Positions 49,965 to 64,000 of a stretch of 64,000 nt of DNA are shown here, piece after piece. The notes below the pieces were generated by a model, which made no database searches, was not told the origin of the DNA, and saw only the letters and a program-made list of their open reading frames with translations. The DNA comes from Candidatus Jettenia sp. AMX2. GTDB lineage: Bacteria; Planctomycetota; Brocadiia; Brocadiales; Brocadiaceae. The position numbers were made by a program, and so were the translations under genes. The stretch's first letter is position 1. Every line of letters starts with the position of its first letter. Location of the stretch: the NCBI GenBank assembly GCA_030583665.1, contig CP129469.1, positions 2,037,043 through 2,101,042 on the forward strand. The letters are read 5' to 3'.

Positions 49965-51080
49965 GGGCAGTGCCTGCCAGATTTACCACGAAGGACCTGG
50001 TGCAGCCTTTGGCGCAACCAAATTCGAATTTCTGATTGCGGATTTCGGATTTCGAAACAATTTCAAATGCGTTCTTTGCACCTTTTCGATAAACTATTAC
50101 GATTTATTTTTTGTTTTCTAATCCCGAAGGGATGTCATGATTATAGCAAAAGTTATACAAAAAATTTCTAACCCCGAAGGGGTGACATAGAAAACCCACG
50201 ATTATCTTACCATCATGCCACCCCTTCGGGGTTGTTGGTTTTTGTTTGTTCATTTACTATAATCATGTCAGCCCTTCGGGCTTGACGCAGCCTTTGGCCG
50301 CAACCAAATTAGAAATACTAAAATTTCCTCCCCCTTGATGGGGGAGGCCAGGTGGGGGGTGAATAAGAATTGAAAAAAGAACTACAACATAGAGCAAAAA
50401 TTCTCAGAAAACGACCCACCGATGCAGAAAAAAGTCATAAGAAAAGCATTGATTGACCCACCCTCCCCTAACCCCTCCCATCGAGGGAGGGGTATTTATC
50501 AAGCTTATGCATTTTGAAAAACGAGCACAAAAAACAAGAAGTTGGTGGATAGTAGAACGAAGTTTATTAACACGAAGTATAAGAATAACACGAAGCGCAC
50601 GAAGTTTACGAAGAGCACGAAGAAGGGCAAGATTTAGATTTGCTTTGTAATTTCTCAGTAATTACCCTGTCAGGGTTTTCGGATTCGAAGTTTATGAAGA
50701 ACATAAAGAAAGACAGGATTTTATCGATTCAGCTTCTTATTTCTCTCATCGTGTCCTTCGTGGTGTTAAAACACGTTTTTGGTGTAGGGCAAGCATTCAA
50801 GCAGAAAAAGCAAATGTATCAGTTTTTTTAAATCTGTGTAATCTGTGTAATCTGTGGTTTCGTGTCTTATTTGGCGGGCAATGCCCACCCTACATTGTTT
50901 TTACCACGAAGCGCACGAAGTATATAAAAAACCGGAATGCAATATCTTATCGCAAAATTAGGATATCTTATCAAAAAAGCCTTTATATTTTACGAAACCA
51001 TATTTTAGTTTTTTCTTACCTGTGAAATCTGTGTAATCTGTGGTTGTCTTTTCTTTGTATAATCCGTGAAACTGTGATTT
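49965..51080. repeat. Intergenic repeat cluster splitting tadB from tadC
   Basis: GGCGGGCAGTGCCTGCC palindrome (49962), a full plus-oriented large element (49990-50550, core 50119-50282) with a frame-broken DUF559 relic (50367-50440), ACGAAG repeats (50555-50640), CTGTGTAATCTGTGTAATC repeats (50831-50865), a GGCGGGCAATGCCCACC palindrome (50874) and further CTGTGAAATCTGTG repeats (51020-51065). No functional gene is seen. Confidence 0.83.
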
Positions 51081-51118
51081 CTATCTTTTGACCCGTTCGT
51101 GTAAGGAGTCCTCATACT

Positions 51119-52081
51119 ATGGATATTACCCTTTTACTGCCAGGAATCATCTTTATCGGCGTACTGCTTTCGGTACTGGTTATTTCCCTCCGCATCAGAT
51201 CACTCATGGAACGCCGCAAGCTACTCCGGAAGGTTGAAATGAAAGGGTACACCCAGGCACAGGCAGGGTCGTCACTCTCAATCACAACGATCATTAAACT
51301 GTATCAGGAACGTATAAAGCAATCCATTGCCCGGATTGCCGGCACGTTCGGAAGCGCTGCAAAGCCCAAAAAGGAAGAAGAGGTTTCCCATATCGGGAAG
51401 ATGCTGTCAGCCATCGGGTACCGCGGCAGGAATGTTGTGTTGGTTTTCTTCGGCATTAAGTTCCTTTGCATCATATTATTACCCGCTGGTCTTTTCTTCC
51501 TCAGGTTCCTGATCAAAAGGCCTGTCCCCCCCGTGCTATTTTTCCTGCTTCTCATCATATTTGCGCTGCTGGGATCGTATATACCGAATATCTGGCTCCG
51601 GATAAAGGTTGCCCGCAGGAAAGAGAAGATCATGGAAGGGTTTCCCGATGCGCTTGATTTGCTGGTTGTATGTGTCGAGTCGGGTATGGGACTCGATGCG
51701 GCAATTGACCGGGTCGGAGAAGAGATGAAACTCAGCAATGCGCCGCTCAGTGAAGAACTAAGGCTTTATAACATGGAAATGCGGGTGGGAAAGTCACGGG
51801 TGGATGCGCTGAAGAGCCTCGCAGGCAGGACAGACCTGGAGGATATGAAGAGCCTGGTAACACTCCTGATCCAGACTGACAAGTTCGGCACGAGCATGGC
51901 GCAGGCATTGAGGATCCATTCTGACACCATGCGGGGGCAAAGACATCAAAGGGCTGAGGAAAAGGCTGCAAAATTACCGGTAAAGCTACTGATCCCTTTG
52001 GTTTTTTGTATCTTCCCTGCACTTTTTGTCGTCATCCTTGGACCGGCCATTATCCAAACAATCCGTGTCTTTAACCGTTGA
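51119..52081 (+). CDS. tadC: Flp pilus inner-membrane platform protein TadC
   Basis: The second GspF-type platform protein, 320 residues. An N-terminal helix (about 4-24), a central hydrophobic pair (about 105-160), the T2SSF domain (about 175-295) with FPDALDLLVVCVESGMGLDAA and QTDKFGTSMAQALRIHSD, and a terminal helix (about 288-312). An AAGGAG site precedes the ATG. It partners TadB. It stands alone between two repeat clusters, 1.16 kb from tadB and 1.04 kb from the TPR gene, so it must rely on long transcripts or its own promoter. Confidence 0.94.
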   Translation: MDITLLLPGIIFIGVLLSVLVISLRIRSLMERRKLLRKVEMKGYTQAQAGSSLSITTIIKLYQERIKQSIARIAGTFGSAAKPKKEEEVSHIGKMLSAIGYRGRNVVLVFFGIKFLCIILLPAGLFFLRFLIKRPVPPVLFFLLLIIFALLGSYIPNIWLRIKVARRKEKIMEGFPDALDLLVVCVESGMGLDAAIDRVGEEMKLSNAPLSEELRLYNMEMRVGKSRVDALKSLAGRTDLEDMKSLVTLLIQTDKFGTSMAQALRIHSDTMRGQRHQRAEEKAAKLPVKLLIPLVFCIFPALFVVILGPAIIQTIRVFNR

Positions 52082-52089
52082 CGGACCGC

Positions 52090-53060
52090 CGGGAGAAAAC
52101 CACAGATTGCACAGAAAAATAACACAACTAAAGTTTAACCAATGGGAACCACAGATTTTACAGATTACACAGATAAGGGCTACAGATTTCACAGTCTGGT
52201 TAAGCCACAACAAAAAGATTTTCACCACGAAGAACCTGGCGCGGCCTTTGGCCGCAACTAAATTCGAAATTTGAATTTCGAAATTCGAAACAATTTCAAA
52301 TGCGTTCTTTGCACCTTTTCGATAAACTATTACGATTTATTTTTTGTTTTCTAATCCCGAAGGGATGTCATGATTATAGCAAAAGTCATACAAAAGATTT
52401 CTAACCCCGAAGGGGTGACATAGAAAACCCACGATTATCTTACAATCATGCCACCCCTTCGGGGTTGTTGGTTTTTGTTTGTTCATTTACTATAATCATG
52501 TCAGCCCTTCGGGCTTGGCGCAGCCTTTGGCCGCAACCAAATTCGAAATTTGAATTTCGAAATACTAAAATTTCCTCCCCCCTGTCTGCGTGCGGTGACG
52601 CACAGGCAGGCTTGATGGGGGAGGCCAGGTGGGGGTGAATAAGAATTGAAAAAAGAACTACGGCATAGAGCAAAAATTCTCAGAAAACGACCCACCAATG
52701 CAGAAAAAAGTCATAAGAAAAGCATTGATTGATTGACCCGCCCTCCCCTAACCCCTCCCATCGAGGGAAGGGAATTTATCAAGCTTATGCATCTTGAAAA
52801 ACAAGCACAAAAAACAAGAAGTTGATGGATAGTAGTACGAAGAAAGACAAAACAATGGTTTCATGAATGAGGAATAGGTAACAGGGGAGCATGTCATTGA
52901 AAGAATATAGGTGAGAGGGCCATCAGGTGAAAGTCATTTACCTTATCCTTCTTTCTTTTTTTTCTTTCGTTTTTTTCCCAATCCGTGTATTCTGTGGTAC
53001 TTCTCTGTTCAATCTGTAGTTTTTTTCTGTGAAATCTGTGAAATCTGTGGTTCCTATTGG
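52090..53060. repeat. Intergenic repeat cluster between tadC and tadD
   Basis: CACAGATT repeats (52100-52195), a full plus-oriented large element (52240-52840, core 52351-52520) with the frame-broken DUF559 relic (52637-52730), then CTGTG-type repeats (52985-53060). The intervening 52860-52960 shows nothing recognisable. No functional gene is seen. Confidence 0.82.
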
Positions 53061-58213: not shown

Positions 58214-58489
58214 TCACAAAAACAACTCCACACCCTCCGGAAGCCGGTCACCCTGACCAAGCACTACGCACCTGACATTTGATGGCAGCGAATAGATCCG
58301 TATATCATCCTTTTTACTATCAACAATACCCTCAAGCCTTTCCTTCAACCCTGTCAGTTCCTGCCAGGTAAGTTTACAAAAAAATACCGAATACTGGATA
58401 TGCGTGCCTATCCCCTTGAGCGTTTTGAACACCTGTCTGAGTCTTTTTTCATCGGAAATGTCGTAACAGACAATATAGTTGCTCTTCAT
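58214..58489 (-). CDS. cas2: CRISPR-associated endonuclease Cas2 (second copy)
   Basis: The protein has 91 residues. Cas2 dimers bridge two Cas1 dimers in the spacer-integration complex. The ferredoxin-fold pattern is complete: YIVCYDISDEKRLRQVF with the conserved Asp at residue 10, GTHIQYSVFFCKLT, and DDIRIYSLP. Its start lies three bases after the second cas1 gene, and it ends the cas block. It is clearly different from the other Cas2 (60272-60553), so it is a distinct lineage rather than a recent duplicate. Confidence 0.95.
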   Translation of the reverse strand: MKSNYIVCYDISDEKRLRQVFKTLKGIGTHIQYSVFFCKLTWQELTGLKERLEGIVDSKKDDIRIYSLPSNVRCVVLGQGDRLPEGVELFL

Positions 58490-58492
58490 TTT

Positions 58493-59326
58493 TTATAGAA
58501 ACCGGCTTGATTCTCCGCTTATCCTCAGTTCTCTGATAAGCTCAAATATACCATCAATAATGTGATCTGTCATAAGAACCAGGGTCTCTTTCCTGTTCTC
58601 AAACCGCACGGCAATATCCTTCATATCCACGGATGACATCTCTTTTGCATAATGACCGGTTCTCTTTCTCCCCTTCAAGTACTGAATGGACTGTATATCT
58701 ATCTCAGAGCCGAATATATGGCAAATATCCAGGACAAGTCCAAAATCACGCCTCCGGTGCATCACCCCCATATGAGGGTCGAGTTCTGACGCTATGAGTT
58801 TGCCAACGACCATTTCTGTAAAGACTGCTGCAACGGCGTTCCGTACCTGCTGAAATTTTTGCCCATACGGCGCTATGGCGACATCTATCACCTGCCGGTA
58901 ATCTTCCTCTTTGAGTCCAACCGTAACGAACTTTTCCGGTACCTGCCTTTTCAAAAGCCGTTTCAAAACGTCAATCTGAACCCTCTGGCGATAAGCCCTC
59001 AGGAAGATCATATATCTTCTACGGCTATAATCCGACTCAAAAAATGTCTTCTGCGCCTTATACTGTCCCGGCAGATAGTCCTTGTATGGCAGTGTTACGG
59101 CAACCCGGTCACCCTTCTTATCAAGAAACGTCACCGGAACGTTGTTTTGTGTAAAAAGTGTTATCAAACCGGTTTCCAGTTTGATATTTCCGGTAATTAC
59201 TACCCGTTGAATGACCCGGGCAGGCACGCGCCTGCCGGACTTTCCTTCTTCTTTTACTACTATGGAAGGCCCGTCAAGAGTAACGCTGAGCGTTGAATTC
59301 TCATTCAGGTAAAGTGTCTTTTCCAT
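58493..59326 (-). CDS. cas1: CRISPR-associated endonuclease Cas1 (second, divergent copy)
   Basis: The spacer-integrase of 277 residues, shorter than usual (about 300-340). The N-terminal beta domain and helical catalytic domain are both present. Catalytic Glu in VFTEMVVGKL near residue 170 and His in GVMHRRRD near 189 are intact, and Asp in VLDICHIF near 199 is present. In typical Cas1 an acidic residue lies three positions after that Asp; here it is His, and the following ExFR-like block is missing. The start overlaps the end of the first cas1 gene by 26 bases in another frame. Paired with the Cas2 downstream. Confidence 0.93.
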   Translation of the reverse strand: MEKTLYLNENSTLSVTLDGPSIVVKEEGKSGRRVPARVIQRVVITGNIKLETGLITLFTQNNVPVTFLDKKGDRVAVTLPYKDYLPGQYKAQKTFFESDYSRRRYMIFLRAYRQRVQIDVLKRLLKRQVPEKFVTVGLKEEDYRQVIDVAIAPYGQKFQQVRNAVAAVFTEMVVGKLIASELDPHMGVMHRRRDFGLVLDICHIFGSEIDIQSIQYLKGRKRTGHYAKEMSSVDMKDIAVRFENRKETLVLMTDHIIDGIFELIRELRISGESSRFL

Positions 59327-60263
59327 CCATAACCCTCATACAAACATTTCTTACCTTTCCGGCAATATCCCTTCTTACCGTTTCTACCCATCCCTCATAA
59401 ACCGGATAAAATTCCTTTCTGGCATCCTTTTTTAAATAAACACCTTCATTATCCTGTACAAAATCCCCTGAAGTGTATTTTCTGTCCTTAAACATTTCCC
59501 AGACAAAACGGTCTGCAACAGGCCTGATTGTTTCAATGAGATCGCAGGCAAGGGATTCTCTTCCGTAGTCAAAACAGTGATAAAAACCAATGGTTGGGTC
59601 AAGTCCCGCAACCTGTATCTCCCTTACCGCTTCATAATGTACGAGGGTATAACAGAGTGAAAGCATCGCATTTACGGGGTCTTTGGGCGGCCTCCTGGTA
59701 CGGATTTTAAATCCCAGTGATTCAGGGAACAGTGCGGTAAATGCAGAGAAATATGCATTTGAAGCTGCCCCCTCGTACCCTCTCAGATTCTCAAGAGCGC
59801 TGCACCGCGAAGTAATGCCATCCGCAATGTTCTCAAACGCAGCAAAGACATTAAAAAATGCCAGCTTCTGGCTTTTGCTTCCCACAATCTTTATCGCCTC
59901 GCCAAGAAATTCACCCTGACATTTGATTTTCTCAAGGATAATTTCTTTCGAAATTGTCAGGGTAAAATTCCCGTTCAGAGACTTTTCATATTGTTTCACC
60001 CTCAGGATACCATTGTTGTGAATACGGCCGAAGAGGGTGCCTCTGTACTGAAGCCCCCTGCCTGACAGGAAGAGAACGCAGCACCCGTTATCTGCAAGTT
60101 TGTTCAATACACTTGTTTCTATTGTATTGTTTCCGGCAATTACTACCCGGTCGAGCGGCCTTACCGGGACAATACCTTCACGTTTTCCGTCAAGGTAAAA
60201 TGCAATTGATTCACCGTCAAGCTTCAGATGATAACCTTTTCTGTCAATATAGAGGGTACCCAT
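59301..60263 (-). CDS. cas1: CRISPR-associated endonuclease Cas1 (first copy)
   Basis: The protein has 320 residues, a normal Cas1 length. The N-terminal beta domain (RVVIAGNNTIETSVLNKLAD) and helical domain are complete. Catalytic residues: Glu in NAMLSLCYTLVHYEAV near 208, His in GFYHCFDYG near 228, and Asp plus Glu in ACDLIETIRP near 238-241. This matches ordinary Cas1. It starts eight bases after the first cas2 and overlaps the second cas1 by 26 bases. The two Cas1 proteins share only the fold and motifs, so the tandem is not a recent duplication. Confidence 0.96.
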   Translation of the reverse strand: MGTLYIDRKGYHLKLDGESIAFYLDGKREGIVPVRPLDRVVIAGNNTIETSVLNKLADNGCCVLFLSGRGLQYRGTLFGRIHNNGILRVKQYEKSLNGNFTLTISKEIILEKIKCQGEFLGEAIKIVGSKSQKLAFFNVFAAFENIADGITSRCSALENLRGYEGAASNAYFSAFTALFPESLGFKIRTRRPPKDPVNAMLSLCYTLVHYEAVREIQVAGLDPTIGFYHCFDYGRESLACDLIETIRPVADRFVWEMFKDRKYTSGDFVQDNEGVYLKKDARKEFYPVYEGWVETVRRDIAGKVRNVCMRVMDGKDTLPE

Positions 60264-60271
60264 AGCCGTAG

Positions 60272-60553
60272 TTATCCGAAATAAAAAAACTCAGGGTCTT
60301 TTGGAGGTACTGCTATGCCAAGGGTATGGGGACGGCTTCTCCCATCGAGTGAGAAGATATGAATCCGGTCTGTACTTTCATCAATAATATGTGACACACC
60401 GGAAATTACCTCCCTCAGTTCTCCTTGCGTAAGGAAACACTCGAAGACGGACTTCTGGCCTCCCGTACTGAATCCCTTCAGAAAATACCGCACACGGTTA
60501 AGACGCTTTGGCGTGCAGACATCGTATGCCACAATATAGAGATCTCTTTGCAT
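60272..60553 (-). CDS. cas2: CRISPR-associated endonuclease Cas2 (first copy)
   Basis: The protein has 93 residues with Cas2 pattern: MQRDLYIVAYDVCTPKRLNR with the Asp at residue 11, GGQKSVFECFLT, and DRIHIFSLD. The frame stays open 27 codons upstream, but family alignment places the start at 60553, with AAGG upstream. It precedes cas1 by eight bases, the reverse of the usual cas1-cas2 order, so that with the second pair the block reads cas2-cas1-cas1-cas2. Confidence 0.94.
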   Translation of the reverse strand: MQRDLYIVAYDVCTPKRLNRVRYFLKGFSTGGQKSVFECFLTQGELREVISGVSHIIDESTDRIHIFSLDGRSRPHTLGIAVPPKDPEFFYFG

Positions 60554-61275
60554 AACACAATACCTTATATTTAAATTTACCGGAATGACTAACAAGTGCA
60601 CTTCATCCCCGTTTTTATGAGAATTAAAGTACATTTATTTACAAAAGTTAAAATGCTACAGTAATTCAATACATACCCTTATTATGTAACAGTCATCGGC
60701 AGGATGCAAAAAAAGAAATATTTCAGAAACATTTCAGGAAGAAACCTTATAAGGTAAAATTATCATGTCAACCGGGGACGGTTGACCTACCATGCACATT
60801 ATTTTTATGGCAGACGGGGACAATCACCCCACGATAGTTATTTTGCAACCGTGATGCATCCCCTATAACGCATTTTTTTTGGTAGGACAAGCGTCCCCGT
60901 TTGTTCATTTACGGTGTTTATTTTTGGTGGGCAGTGCCCATCCTACATTTAAATTGTTTTTATTAACACGAAGCACACGAAGTTTACGAAGAATATGAAA
61001 AAGGGCAAGGTTTGAATTTGCTTTGTAATTTCTCAGTTAACCCTGTCAGGGTTTTCGGTATTTTTCTCTTCGTGGCCTTCGTGGTGTTAAGACGTATTTT
61101 TTTCTGTGGGAGGCAGGCACTATCTGCCACTGTTTGTTCAACCGGTCATTGCGAGGGTCTTTCCCTAAGCAATCCCCTCCTGCCACAACAACAATAAAAC
61201 TATGGCTTTATGACTTATAGATTGAAAATAATCCAAAATCTGAAACTGTAATGTAGGGTGCGTCCCACACACCGG
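60554..61275. repeat. Gap inside the cas locus with palindromes and repeats
   Basis: A 722-base gap between cas2 and cad1 holds no gene and no CRISPR repeats. It contains a GTCAACCGGGGACGGTTGAC palindrome (60767-60786), GGGGAC and GTCCCC pieces up to 60900, a GGTGGGCAGTGCCCATCC palindrome (60926), ACGAAG repeats (60965-61000), CTTCGTGGCC-type repeats (61070-61085) and a CATTGCGAGG fragment (61145-61180). The cas2 promoter is probably near 60560-60700. Confidence 0.7.
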
Positions 61276-63362
61276 TCAATGCTTCTCAAGATATTCATGT
61301 ATCAGGATTGAGAGAATATCCCGCTCAGCCTGATGCAATAACAGATTTTTCTGCTGAAGCGGAAGAAAGCCGGATAGAAACCCCTGACGAATTATCCTTA
61401 AGATATCCCATTTACTTAAGCCACCTTCCGTCAGATGACATGCCTTCAAAAACTCACCTGTTAACGTCGTCCTTGAAATACCACGATTATCCGTATTTAT
61501 TGTTACCCCCACCCCTTCATTTAGATAGTGCCGCAACGGATATATTTCAGCATCTTCATTCCTTAAAATATCGGATTGCCTATTGCTAAAATTGCGATAT
61601 CTGCATGTTGTCAGGTTGGAAGCCGGACACATCTCAAGTGAAATATGCATATCCCTCAAATATTCCATCATTTTCTTATCCTGATACAATTTTAATCCGT
61701 GTCCAATCCTCCTTGCATGGAGGTGATACAATGCCTCCCAGATATTCTGACTGCTTTCTGTCTCCCCTGCGTGAATTGTAATCTTAATAAAATGGTAATG
61801 AAGAGGTGAAACATGTCTACGAATTGCACGGGGCTAAAATCCTTTTCTTTACCCGCCAGATCCACCCCGCAAACACGAGGAATGAAGTCATTATCCCTAT
61901 GGTAATTCTTGCCGCTGCTATAACTCTTCCCCGGCGCATATTCTGAAAAAACAACTGCCGTAGATATATTCTTGATAACAGATGCCATATCCTTGTGCCT
62001 TGTTGCAATAATAATGAAATTCACTGTAATTGAAGGATGTTCTTTTATAAACTGTTCTGATGTCTCCAAGAGTATTTTCACCACATCAAAGGTATTCAGA
62101 CCGGCATCACAATAGTTCATGGGTGAGATGCGAACTTCGATATAACGAATATTGTCCTTCAAACACGCCATCAACAGGCAATTAATAGCAGCCACCATGG
62201 CGCTTTTTGTCTGAAATAACAATGTCCCCCCAAAGTTTCCGGTGTCCATATACATATCGAGTCCTTCGGTACCAGGTTCACCATCACCCATACGTCGCTG
62301 TGCAGGTTCAGGCCACATCAGCCTGGATATTTCATCGGACGATAAGATATCAAGCTGTACAGCGTTCATTAAGAAAACCGGCAATCGGTCGTCTATTCCC
62401 CGGTAATATTCTTTTAAATAATACAAAGGATGGTTTTTAGCCGTGCCTTTTCTCTTATACAACCACTCTTCCAACGAACGATCACGAAGCTTTTTCCTGA
62501 TAAACGGTATTTCTTCCTTCCATCGCACATACACAAGGTTGTCCGAAAAAATGGCTTCTGCTATTGCTTTGAGTTCATATGGCCCGGCAGTACCACCGAA
62601 ATGGCAGTGAAGATCGGTCTTGGGAAGGGCAGACAGCCACTGATAGTCAGCGCTTTCCCGTCCCAGGTCAGTACCGATTTTTTCAGACTTGAGGTGGTAA
62701 ATAAGTGCAAGCGGTAAGGAATAAAGGGCAGGGAAACTTTGTATCAGCTCCTGTTCTGTTTGAAGCGGTACTGTGCAAATCACCTGTTGTCCATCTGCCG
62801 ACGTCTTTTCAGGCAAATGATACTTTCTCCGCAAGAGGGTTGATAACGGATACCAGTTTACGCTCAGACATTCCGGATGTTTCCTGATGATCTGATAATC
62901 CTTCAATCCTGCAATATTTTTCTTGTAACGTTGAAACTCTGCAGAAAAGGTAACAGAAAGGTATCCATAGAATCCGTAAATATATCCTCCCTCGATAATT
63001 CTCTGCGTAATATCTTTTCGTCCGGCGGAGGATAAGATCAACTTCTCACCCAGATACTGTTCCAATACATCAAAAACAATTCTCCGTGTTTTTTCATCAT
63101 CAATCACACTGGTAATATCCTCAATCCCAAGATTCACTTTTTTTAGCTGAATATCCGGATATTCCAGGATGAGGATTTTTTTAAGTTCCTGAAATACGGG
63201 GATGGTTTTTATCGTGCAAAACAGAACAATCTCATCCAACGGTTCGGCAAATGATTCCTTTGTGTTTCTCGTAATCTCAGTGTATGGGAAATCACCGTTC
63301 AAGAAATCTATCATTTCCATAATTATGTCATAATTTTCTCCCAATGCACTGATAAGTTTCAT
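61276..63362 (-). CDS. cad1: CARF-adenosine deaminase effector Cad1 (one-base frameshift)
   Basis: Type III CRISPR ancillary effector. Residues 1 to about 150 are a CARF cyclic-oligoadenylate sensor (LFCTIKTIPVFQELKK, then the ligand-loop SSAGRKDI near 113). The rest is an adenosine/ATP deaminase barrel: zinc-binding LHCHFGG near 251, then, after the frame break, IHAGE, HARRIGHG, MCPASN and NTDNRGIS. The open frame from 63362 ends at 61692; the C-terminal half is in the -1 frame from about 61800 to 61276. One missing G in the GG at 61805-61806 explains it: with GGG the two join seamlessly as FHPLHYHFIKITIHAGE, a protein of about 695 residues. Cad1 enzymes convert ATP to ITP when cyclic oligoadenylate binds. 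Cas6 lies 53 bases upstream. Confidence 0.9.
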
Positions 63363-63415: not shown

Positions 63416-64000
63416 CTACCTTGCCAATTCATGGTATGTTCCAATCACATATTTTCCCAATCCAAAACTTGTCCCCTTGCCAATATGAAGTATTTCACCT
63501 GCTTTGAGAAAAGGATAAAAAGGAGCAAGAGCGCCTTTGTAGACAATATCTCCCTGGAATCCGCCGAGTTTCATCCTCGTATCCTGCCTGCGTGAGTACC
63601 GTTCCCAGTCGTGCCATTTGAAATTCGATTCCTTTATCTTAACTGTGCGTGCCTCCTCGATAAGCATACGGTGATACCCCTCAGTAGCTGAGGTATCGTC
63701 ACCCTGACTATCTTTACAATAGTAATGTCTGAGCAAAAACAACCGTCTCAGAAGCTGTCTGATGAAGATATGGAATTCCGGATCAGTCGCAAGCTTACCT
63801 TCGTACTTAAGGCGGGTAGGTGTCAGAAACCTCAGGGTAATCTCACCTGGAACAGTATACGCACCGTTTGAAACATCTTCCTGTAGTACCTGCATGGCAG
63901 GCTGACTTAACTCTATGCACTCCCGGTGAAAGGATTCAATCTTTCCGGTTCCGGAACAGTAAATTAATTTTATTTCGCCCTGAGGACCGTCAGCATGCAC
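63416..64000 (-). CDS. cas6: Cas6 pre-crRNA endoribonuclease, C-terminal part (cut by window edge)
   Basis: The visible 194 residues are the C-terminal part of a Cas6 of the PF10040 type, which cleaves pre-crRNA within the repeat. Visible features: the FLTPTRLKYEGK strand and following FHIFIRQLLRRL helix, and the Gly-rich closing loop GFQGDIVYKGALAPF with HIGKGTSFGLGKYVI. The N-terminus lies outside the window, so the active His cannot be checked. It precedes cad1 by 53 bases on the same strand. Upstream genes, perhaps Cas10 and the Csm or Cmr subunits, may continue beyond 64000. Confidence 0.88.
   Translation of the reverse strand: MHADGPQGEIKLIYCSGTGKIESFHRECIELSQPAMQVLQEDVSNGAYTVPGEITLRFLTPTRLKYEGKLATDPEFHIFIRQLLRRLFLLRHYYCKDSQGDDTSATEGYHRMLIEEARTVKIKESNFKWHDWERYSRRQDTRMKLGGFQGDIVYKGALAPFYPFLKAGEILHIGKGTSFGLGKYVIGTYHELAR

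Follow-up and report, generated by a model that had tools for sequence, protein, structure and literature searches.

Known CRISPR integrases are built from copies of one Cas1, half of which stay idle during the chemistry. In the canonical Cas1-Cas2 complexes, solved for E. coli and for types I-C, I-F and II, one Cas1 gene and one Cas2 gene fill both roles, that of the catalytic and that of the idle protomer. Cas1 dimers, in Cas1-Cas2 and casposase complexes alike, comprise a catalytic and a noncatalytic protomer joined by their N-terminal beta domains (PMC6977970), and the repeat channel is walled by inactive Cas1 subunits (PMC12259127). The module described here, a four-gene unit in the order cas2B-cas1B-cas1A-cas2A on the (-) strand, resembles the canonical systems in that Cas1B looks like a typical catalytic Cas1 and in the Cas2 folds, but differs in possessing two divergent genes each of Cas1 and Cas2, with one of the Cas1 proteins degenerate.

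Several other systems share some of these features. The casposase, a Cas1-family transposase, likewise forms dimers of catalytic and noncatalytic protomers (PMC6977970), and casposase 6opm is the top match of the Cas1A structural model by E-value (TM 0.66); unlike the module, however, it is one gene product, has no Cas2 and functions in a mobile element. Two adjacent cas2 genes lie by a cas1 in the primase-polymerase-associated cas1-cas2-cas2 loci (G551, G453 and G489), which have type III-like surroundings, but this tandem cas2 pair comes without a second cas1: the loci encode a single, canonical Cas1 and no Cas1A, and the row includes a TPR-primase protein. A protein with TPR and archaeo-eukaryotic primase-like regions is encoded at the cas1 loci L115 (5207-8472), L116, L117, L112 and L114, with the archaeo-eukaryotic primase-like Pfam match in G551 only. 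A precedent is the PADLOC profile PDLC01185, 'Cas1, diverged variant, second in the loci', which matches all 17 of the Cas1A proteins scanned and whose name implies that such second Cas1s had already been noticed by the PADLOC authors. The name fits the position of cas1A, which follows the canonical cas1B in 19 of 19 loci, and says nothing of a four-gene module. In the members inspected, the match covers approximately the first 110-130 of the 246 profile positions, and PDLC01185 is the best profile for the Cas1A of G643, with other Cas1 profiles outscoring it for most of the others. Within the open-access literature searched, we found neither the four-gene module nor its degenerate Cas1 described.

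The module and its type III surroundings

The window, the whole 64,000-nt stretch that was analyzed, spans positions 2037043-2101042 of the 3.46-Mb single-contig genome of an anammox planctomycete of the same genus as G001. On its (-) strand, a cas6 gene and a CARF-adenosine deaminase gene precede the module (Table 1), in which a Pfam scan of the locus detects two Cas1 and two Cas2 domains. The single strand, the gaps of 8 nt between cas2B and cas1B and of 3 nt between cas1A and cas2A, and the overlap between the two cas1 genes, all given in the first-pass annotation, proved exact when the coordinates were rechecked.

Table 1. Positions of the module genes, their neighbors and other features; coordinates are those of the window unless a locus is named
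Feature	Position	Strand	Match or remark
cas6, truncated by window end (336 aa in L027)	63416..64000	(-)	PF10040; PDLC01477 1.1e-108
CARF-adenosine deaminase (Cad1-like), two frames	61276..63362	(-)	PDLC01908 CARF_ADA, both pieces
cas2B, 93 aa	60272..60553	(-)	PF09827 4.3e-15; start set by homology, ORF extendable to in-frame ATG at 60634
cas1B, 320 aa, predicted canonical catalytic Cas1	59301..60263	(-)	PF01867 8.8e-76
Overlap, 26 nt, of the 3' end of cas1B with the 5' end of cas1A	59301..59326	(-)	same length in 9/19 loci, two phyla
cas1A, 277 aa, divergent Cas1	58493..59326	(-)	PF01867 1.8e-16, N-terminal half
cas2A, 91 aa	58214..58489	(-)	PF09827 1.7e-21
ORF of 191 aa	54606-55181		at least six 54-nt tandem repeats (18 residues each)
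Duplicated stretches of 113-290 nt	50027-52842		~2.2 kb apart, 94-95% identity
Short ~126-aa proteins	L027:7027-7410; L031:4237-4617; L032:14413-14793; L034:7564-7944		...AIEVH..LGPGL...

Past the window lie a CARF-HEPN (Csx1) gene, an array of ~100 36-nt repeats and csm5-csm4-csm3-csm2-cas10. All of Cas10/Csm1, Csm2, Csm3, Csm4 and Csm5 have PADLOC matches, so that, together with the array, the locus is classified as type III-A. Most relatives, too, have a cas6 homologue close to the module. The CARF-adenosine deaminase gene is a neighbor within the type III locus and lies outside the four-gene module; its split frame is either a genuine break or a sequencing error, and an open frame of 605 aa that starts similarly is present in the G005 locus (L034:5098-6915). 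Short similar proteins occur between the cas genes in several anammox loci (Table 1), the one in this genome having no match in PADLOC. The same genome contains two more cas1 loci (L035 and L036), each with a separate repeat family (27 and 103 repeats).

The arrays found near the module belong to one repeat family, the families having been grouped by eye. A conserved leader-like region of ~100 nt extends from the cas2A stop codon to the first repeat in five anammox genomes; in G015, a copy of the leader lies ~400 nt further on, and in the genome analyzed here the same leader is located at the far end of the array, ~17.7 kb from cas2A. There is thus one leader class for the module across the anammox bacteria, and no second array or leader type was detected near the module, nor for the module repeat in the 19 anammox-family genomes covered. 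The division of labor by array that had been proposed at the outset therefore finds no support, the module having a single repeat family and, in the anammox bacteria, a single leader class. The module does not have this repeat to itself, since relatives that lack Cas1A (G008, G030 and G031) share it. The spacers of the array in the genome analyzed here showed no match to phage records. Among loci L027 and L029-L034, a compact module goes with long arrays (~100 repeats in G000, ~61 in G001) and a module with inserts between its genes with short ones (5-6 in G020, 10 in G012, 4-5 in G005), a comparison of small numbers in which some arrays are cut by contig ends.

Conservation and descent of the four genes

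The four-gene order was sought in relatives and is present there in every locus that could be assessed. Six further anammox-family genomes carry Cas1A orthologues with 64-73% identity, and in a 392-genome sample of the host phylum these seven genomes are the only ones with full-length Cas1A matches. Outside this phylum, a scan of named genome contigs revealed a Cas1A with 37% identity in a 'Deltaproteobacteria bacterium' MAG, which carries the four genes in identical order beside cas6 and csm genes, and a second sample comprised 395 genomes from the phylum of this MAG. Surroundings were fetched and all four genes mapped for 19 assessable loci, 7 anammox and 12 in the second phylum; a twentieth, in G654, is truncated where its contig ends and stands outside this set. 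The order is kept in 19 of 19 loci from independent assemblies in the two phyla, which rules out a chance or assembly join. The spacing is more variable: the outer gaps are larger in several loci, and in G436 and G638 3.4-3.7 kb separate cas1B from cas1A, with each cas1-cas2 pair still tight.

In a tree of 58 Cas1 proteins, Cas1A forms one clade (100/100) and Cas1B another (98/89), both apart from the 21 other Cas1s included. This tree bears out the earlier view that the pairs are old, distinct lineages and rules out a recent duplication of a cas1-cas2 pair. In the Cas2 tree, the Cas2B clade is well supported (99/99) and Cas2A is weakly resolved (82/42). Each Cas2 has signatures that are kept in all or nearly all of the 19 loci, namely GGQKS...ECFL and a DPxFFYxG-like end in Cas2B, and QYS[VI]F and DD[IV]R in Cas2A. 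A gene of the Cas1B clade is present in 13 genomes of the 395-genome sample, and the same 13 carry Cas1A; the scores of the clade, 304-524 bits (the lowest from a gene cut by a contig end), stand apart from the 233 bits of the next Cas1. Furthermore, the pairwise distances of the four protein families correlate at 0.91-0.97. Together with the co-occurrence, this implies that the module has been inherited or transferred as a unit, although such co-inheritance would be equally expected if its products made no contact. Searches for copies on plasmids and on viral contigs returned none. In G415, the module is the sole source of cas1 genes found, and Cas1B is therefore the only plausible integrase there.

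Cas1B and Cas1A compared

Judging by its sequence, Cas1B is a typical catalytic Cas1, with a full-length domain (255 bits against PF01867, 281 of 283 profile positions) and the Glu, His and acidic metal ligands E164, H229, D241 and E244, which are invariant in all 19 loci. Cas1A scores below the TIGR00287 cut-off and lacks the conserved set of Glu, His and acidic metal ligands that marks a catalytic Cas1. The profile alignment places G137-L138-K139 of Cas1A opposite G162-Y163-E164 of Cas1B, and across the Cas1A family this stretch is mostly G-[LF]-[KR]. An outright loss of the Glu segment, as suggested by a MAFFT alignment, was abandoned in favor of the profile alignment with K139 opposite E164; this alignment is short at the Glu position, and a shift of three residues brings D or E there in most rows, so that D142 of Cas1A might possibly occupy it. 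Of the 19 rows, 11 have H at the His position and the other 8 have N, K or D. D or E serves as the third ligand, and the position of E244 is taken by H, Y, F, R, Q or S, never by an acidic residue. The active site of Cas1A is thus degenerate in every lineage, and the 'two complete Cas1-Cas2 pairs' of the first-pass annotation do not hold. Activity is likely to have been lost in the lineages without the His. For the anammox bacteria such a loss is less certain: all seven of their copies keep the His and the third-ligand Asp, so that residual activity is possible.

Notwithstanding this degeneration, the AlphaFold2 model of Cas1A (pLDDT 87) has a Cas1 fold (TM 0.74 to 4xtk_D), and the structures that it matches best are those of Cas1 proteins and the casposase; the models indicate that Cas1A is without the helix 130-153 and the hairpin 268-277 of Cas1B. 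In 18 of the 19 loci, Cas1A and Cas1B share a clearly higher identity over the N-terminal 80 residues than over the rest, the margin being about nil in G643. When six anammox copies are compared, dN/dS amounts to 0.10-0.18 in cas1A and, where computable, to 0.09-0.16 in cas1B, rough values given that some comparisons are near synonymous saturation. Selection on cas1A is nonetheless purifying, much like that on cas1B, and the gene is not drifting. The gene is frameshifted in G005 (anammox) and has an internal stop in G584 (MAG).

What could the second Cas1 do?

So what kind of complex could accommodate all these findings? The possibility that we favor, at a little better than even confidence, is that the products of all four genes form one heteromeric integrase, with the chemistry supplied by Cas1B and with Cas1A as a non-catalytic partner dedicated to it. 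Under this scenario, Cas1B would perform the integration reactions, and Cas1A would pair with it through the conserved N-terminal beta domain, permanently occupying the place of the idle protomer of an ordinary Cas1 homodimer. Cas2B and Cas2A would bridge the Cas1 dimers, possibly as a heterodimer, and the unit would serve arrays of a single family alongside a type III effector (III-A in the locus analyzed here). Given the N-terminal likeness of the two proteins and the known roles of the protomers, a fixed noncatalytic partner of Cas1B is the simplest reading of Cas1A. We infer the physical assembly and its stoichiometry, the lack of activity in Cas1A and the part played by each Cas2, and likewise which Cas2 would bridge which dimer and the Cas2 heterodimer itself. 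Of the initial proposal, the mixed integrase thus fits best, with its assembly inferred, and the notion of two complete catalytic pairs has to be abandoned.

The alternatives differ mostly in what they leave unexplained. Capturing, measuring or handing over prespacers is a role of Cas4 in other systems, and Cas1A-Cas2A might be a separate sub-complex that captures, measures or passes prespacers to a Cas1B-Cas2B integrase, with no mixed dimers. This possibility, which we consider unlikely but worth keeping in view, is compatible with the placement of each Cas1 next to one Cas2, with the distinct Cas2 signatures and with the tight pairs that lie ~3.5 kb apart in G436 and G638; against it, in most loci the 26-nt overlap links the two cas1 genes and not the pairs, and the conserved N-terminal domain is the known dimerization part. 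Two independent integrases that differ in PAM, prespacer source or array would account for the different lineages of the Cas1 and Cas2 proteins and for the His and Asp kept by the anammox Cas1A, but appear improbable in view of the degenerate active site, whose His is gone in 8 of the 19 rows, and of the single repeat family at the module and the one anammox leader class.

Still more doubtful is a Cas1A-Cas2A that regulates or limits Cas1B, for instance as an inhibitory or target-recognition partner: retention of the fold under purifying selection despite the degenerate active site would be in line with such a role, but regulation alone leaves two distinct, conserved Cas2 proteins unexplained. 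Finally, the frameshift in G005 and the internal stop in G584 are what a decaying duplicate or an assembly artefact would produce, an explanation that hardly seems credible against dN/dS values this low and the same gene order in independent assemblies of two phyla.

The heteromeric integrase with Cas1A as the non-catalytic partner admits a bolder version, to which we give only modest credence. It is conceivable that the complex is obligately heteromeric and asymmetric, so that Cas1B, a non-catalytic Cas1A and a Cas2A-Cas2B heterodimer together break the two-fold symmetry, and the ends of the prespacer, or the leader and spacer sides, are distinguished by protein identity. Type III systems read RNA and work without relying on a PAM; if the conjecture is true, an asymmetric integrase could give them a fixed spacer polarity. 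If the idle role indeed has a gene of its own and Cas2 has diversified along with it, it would become possible to test separately what the idle protomer does and what Cas2 symmetry contributes, including how spacers gain direction in systems without a PAM.
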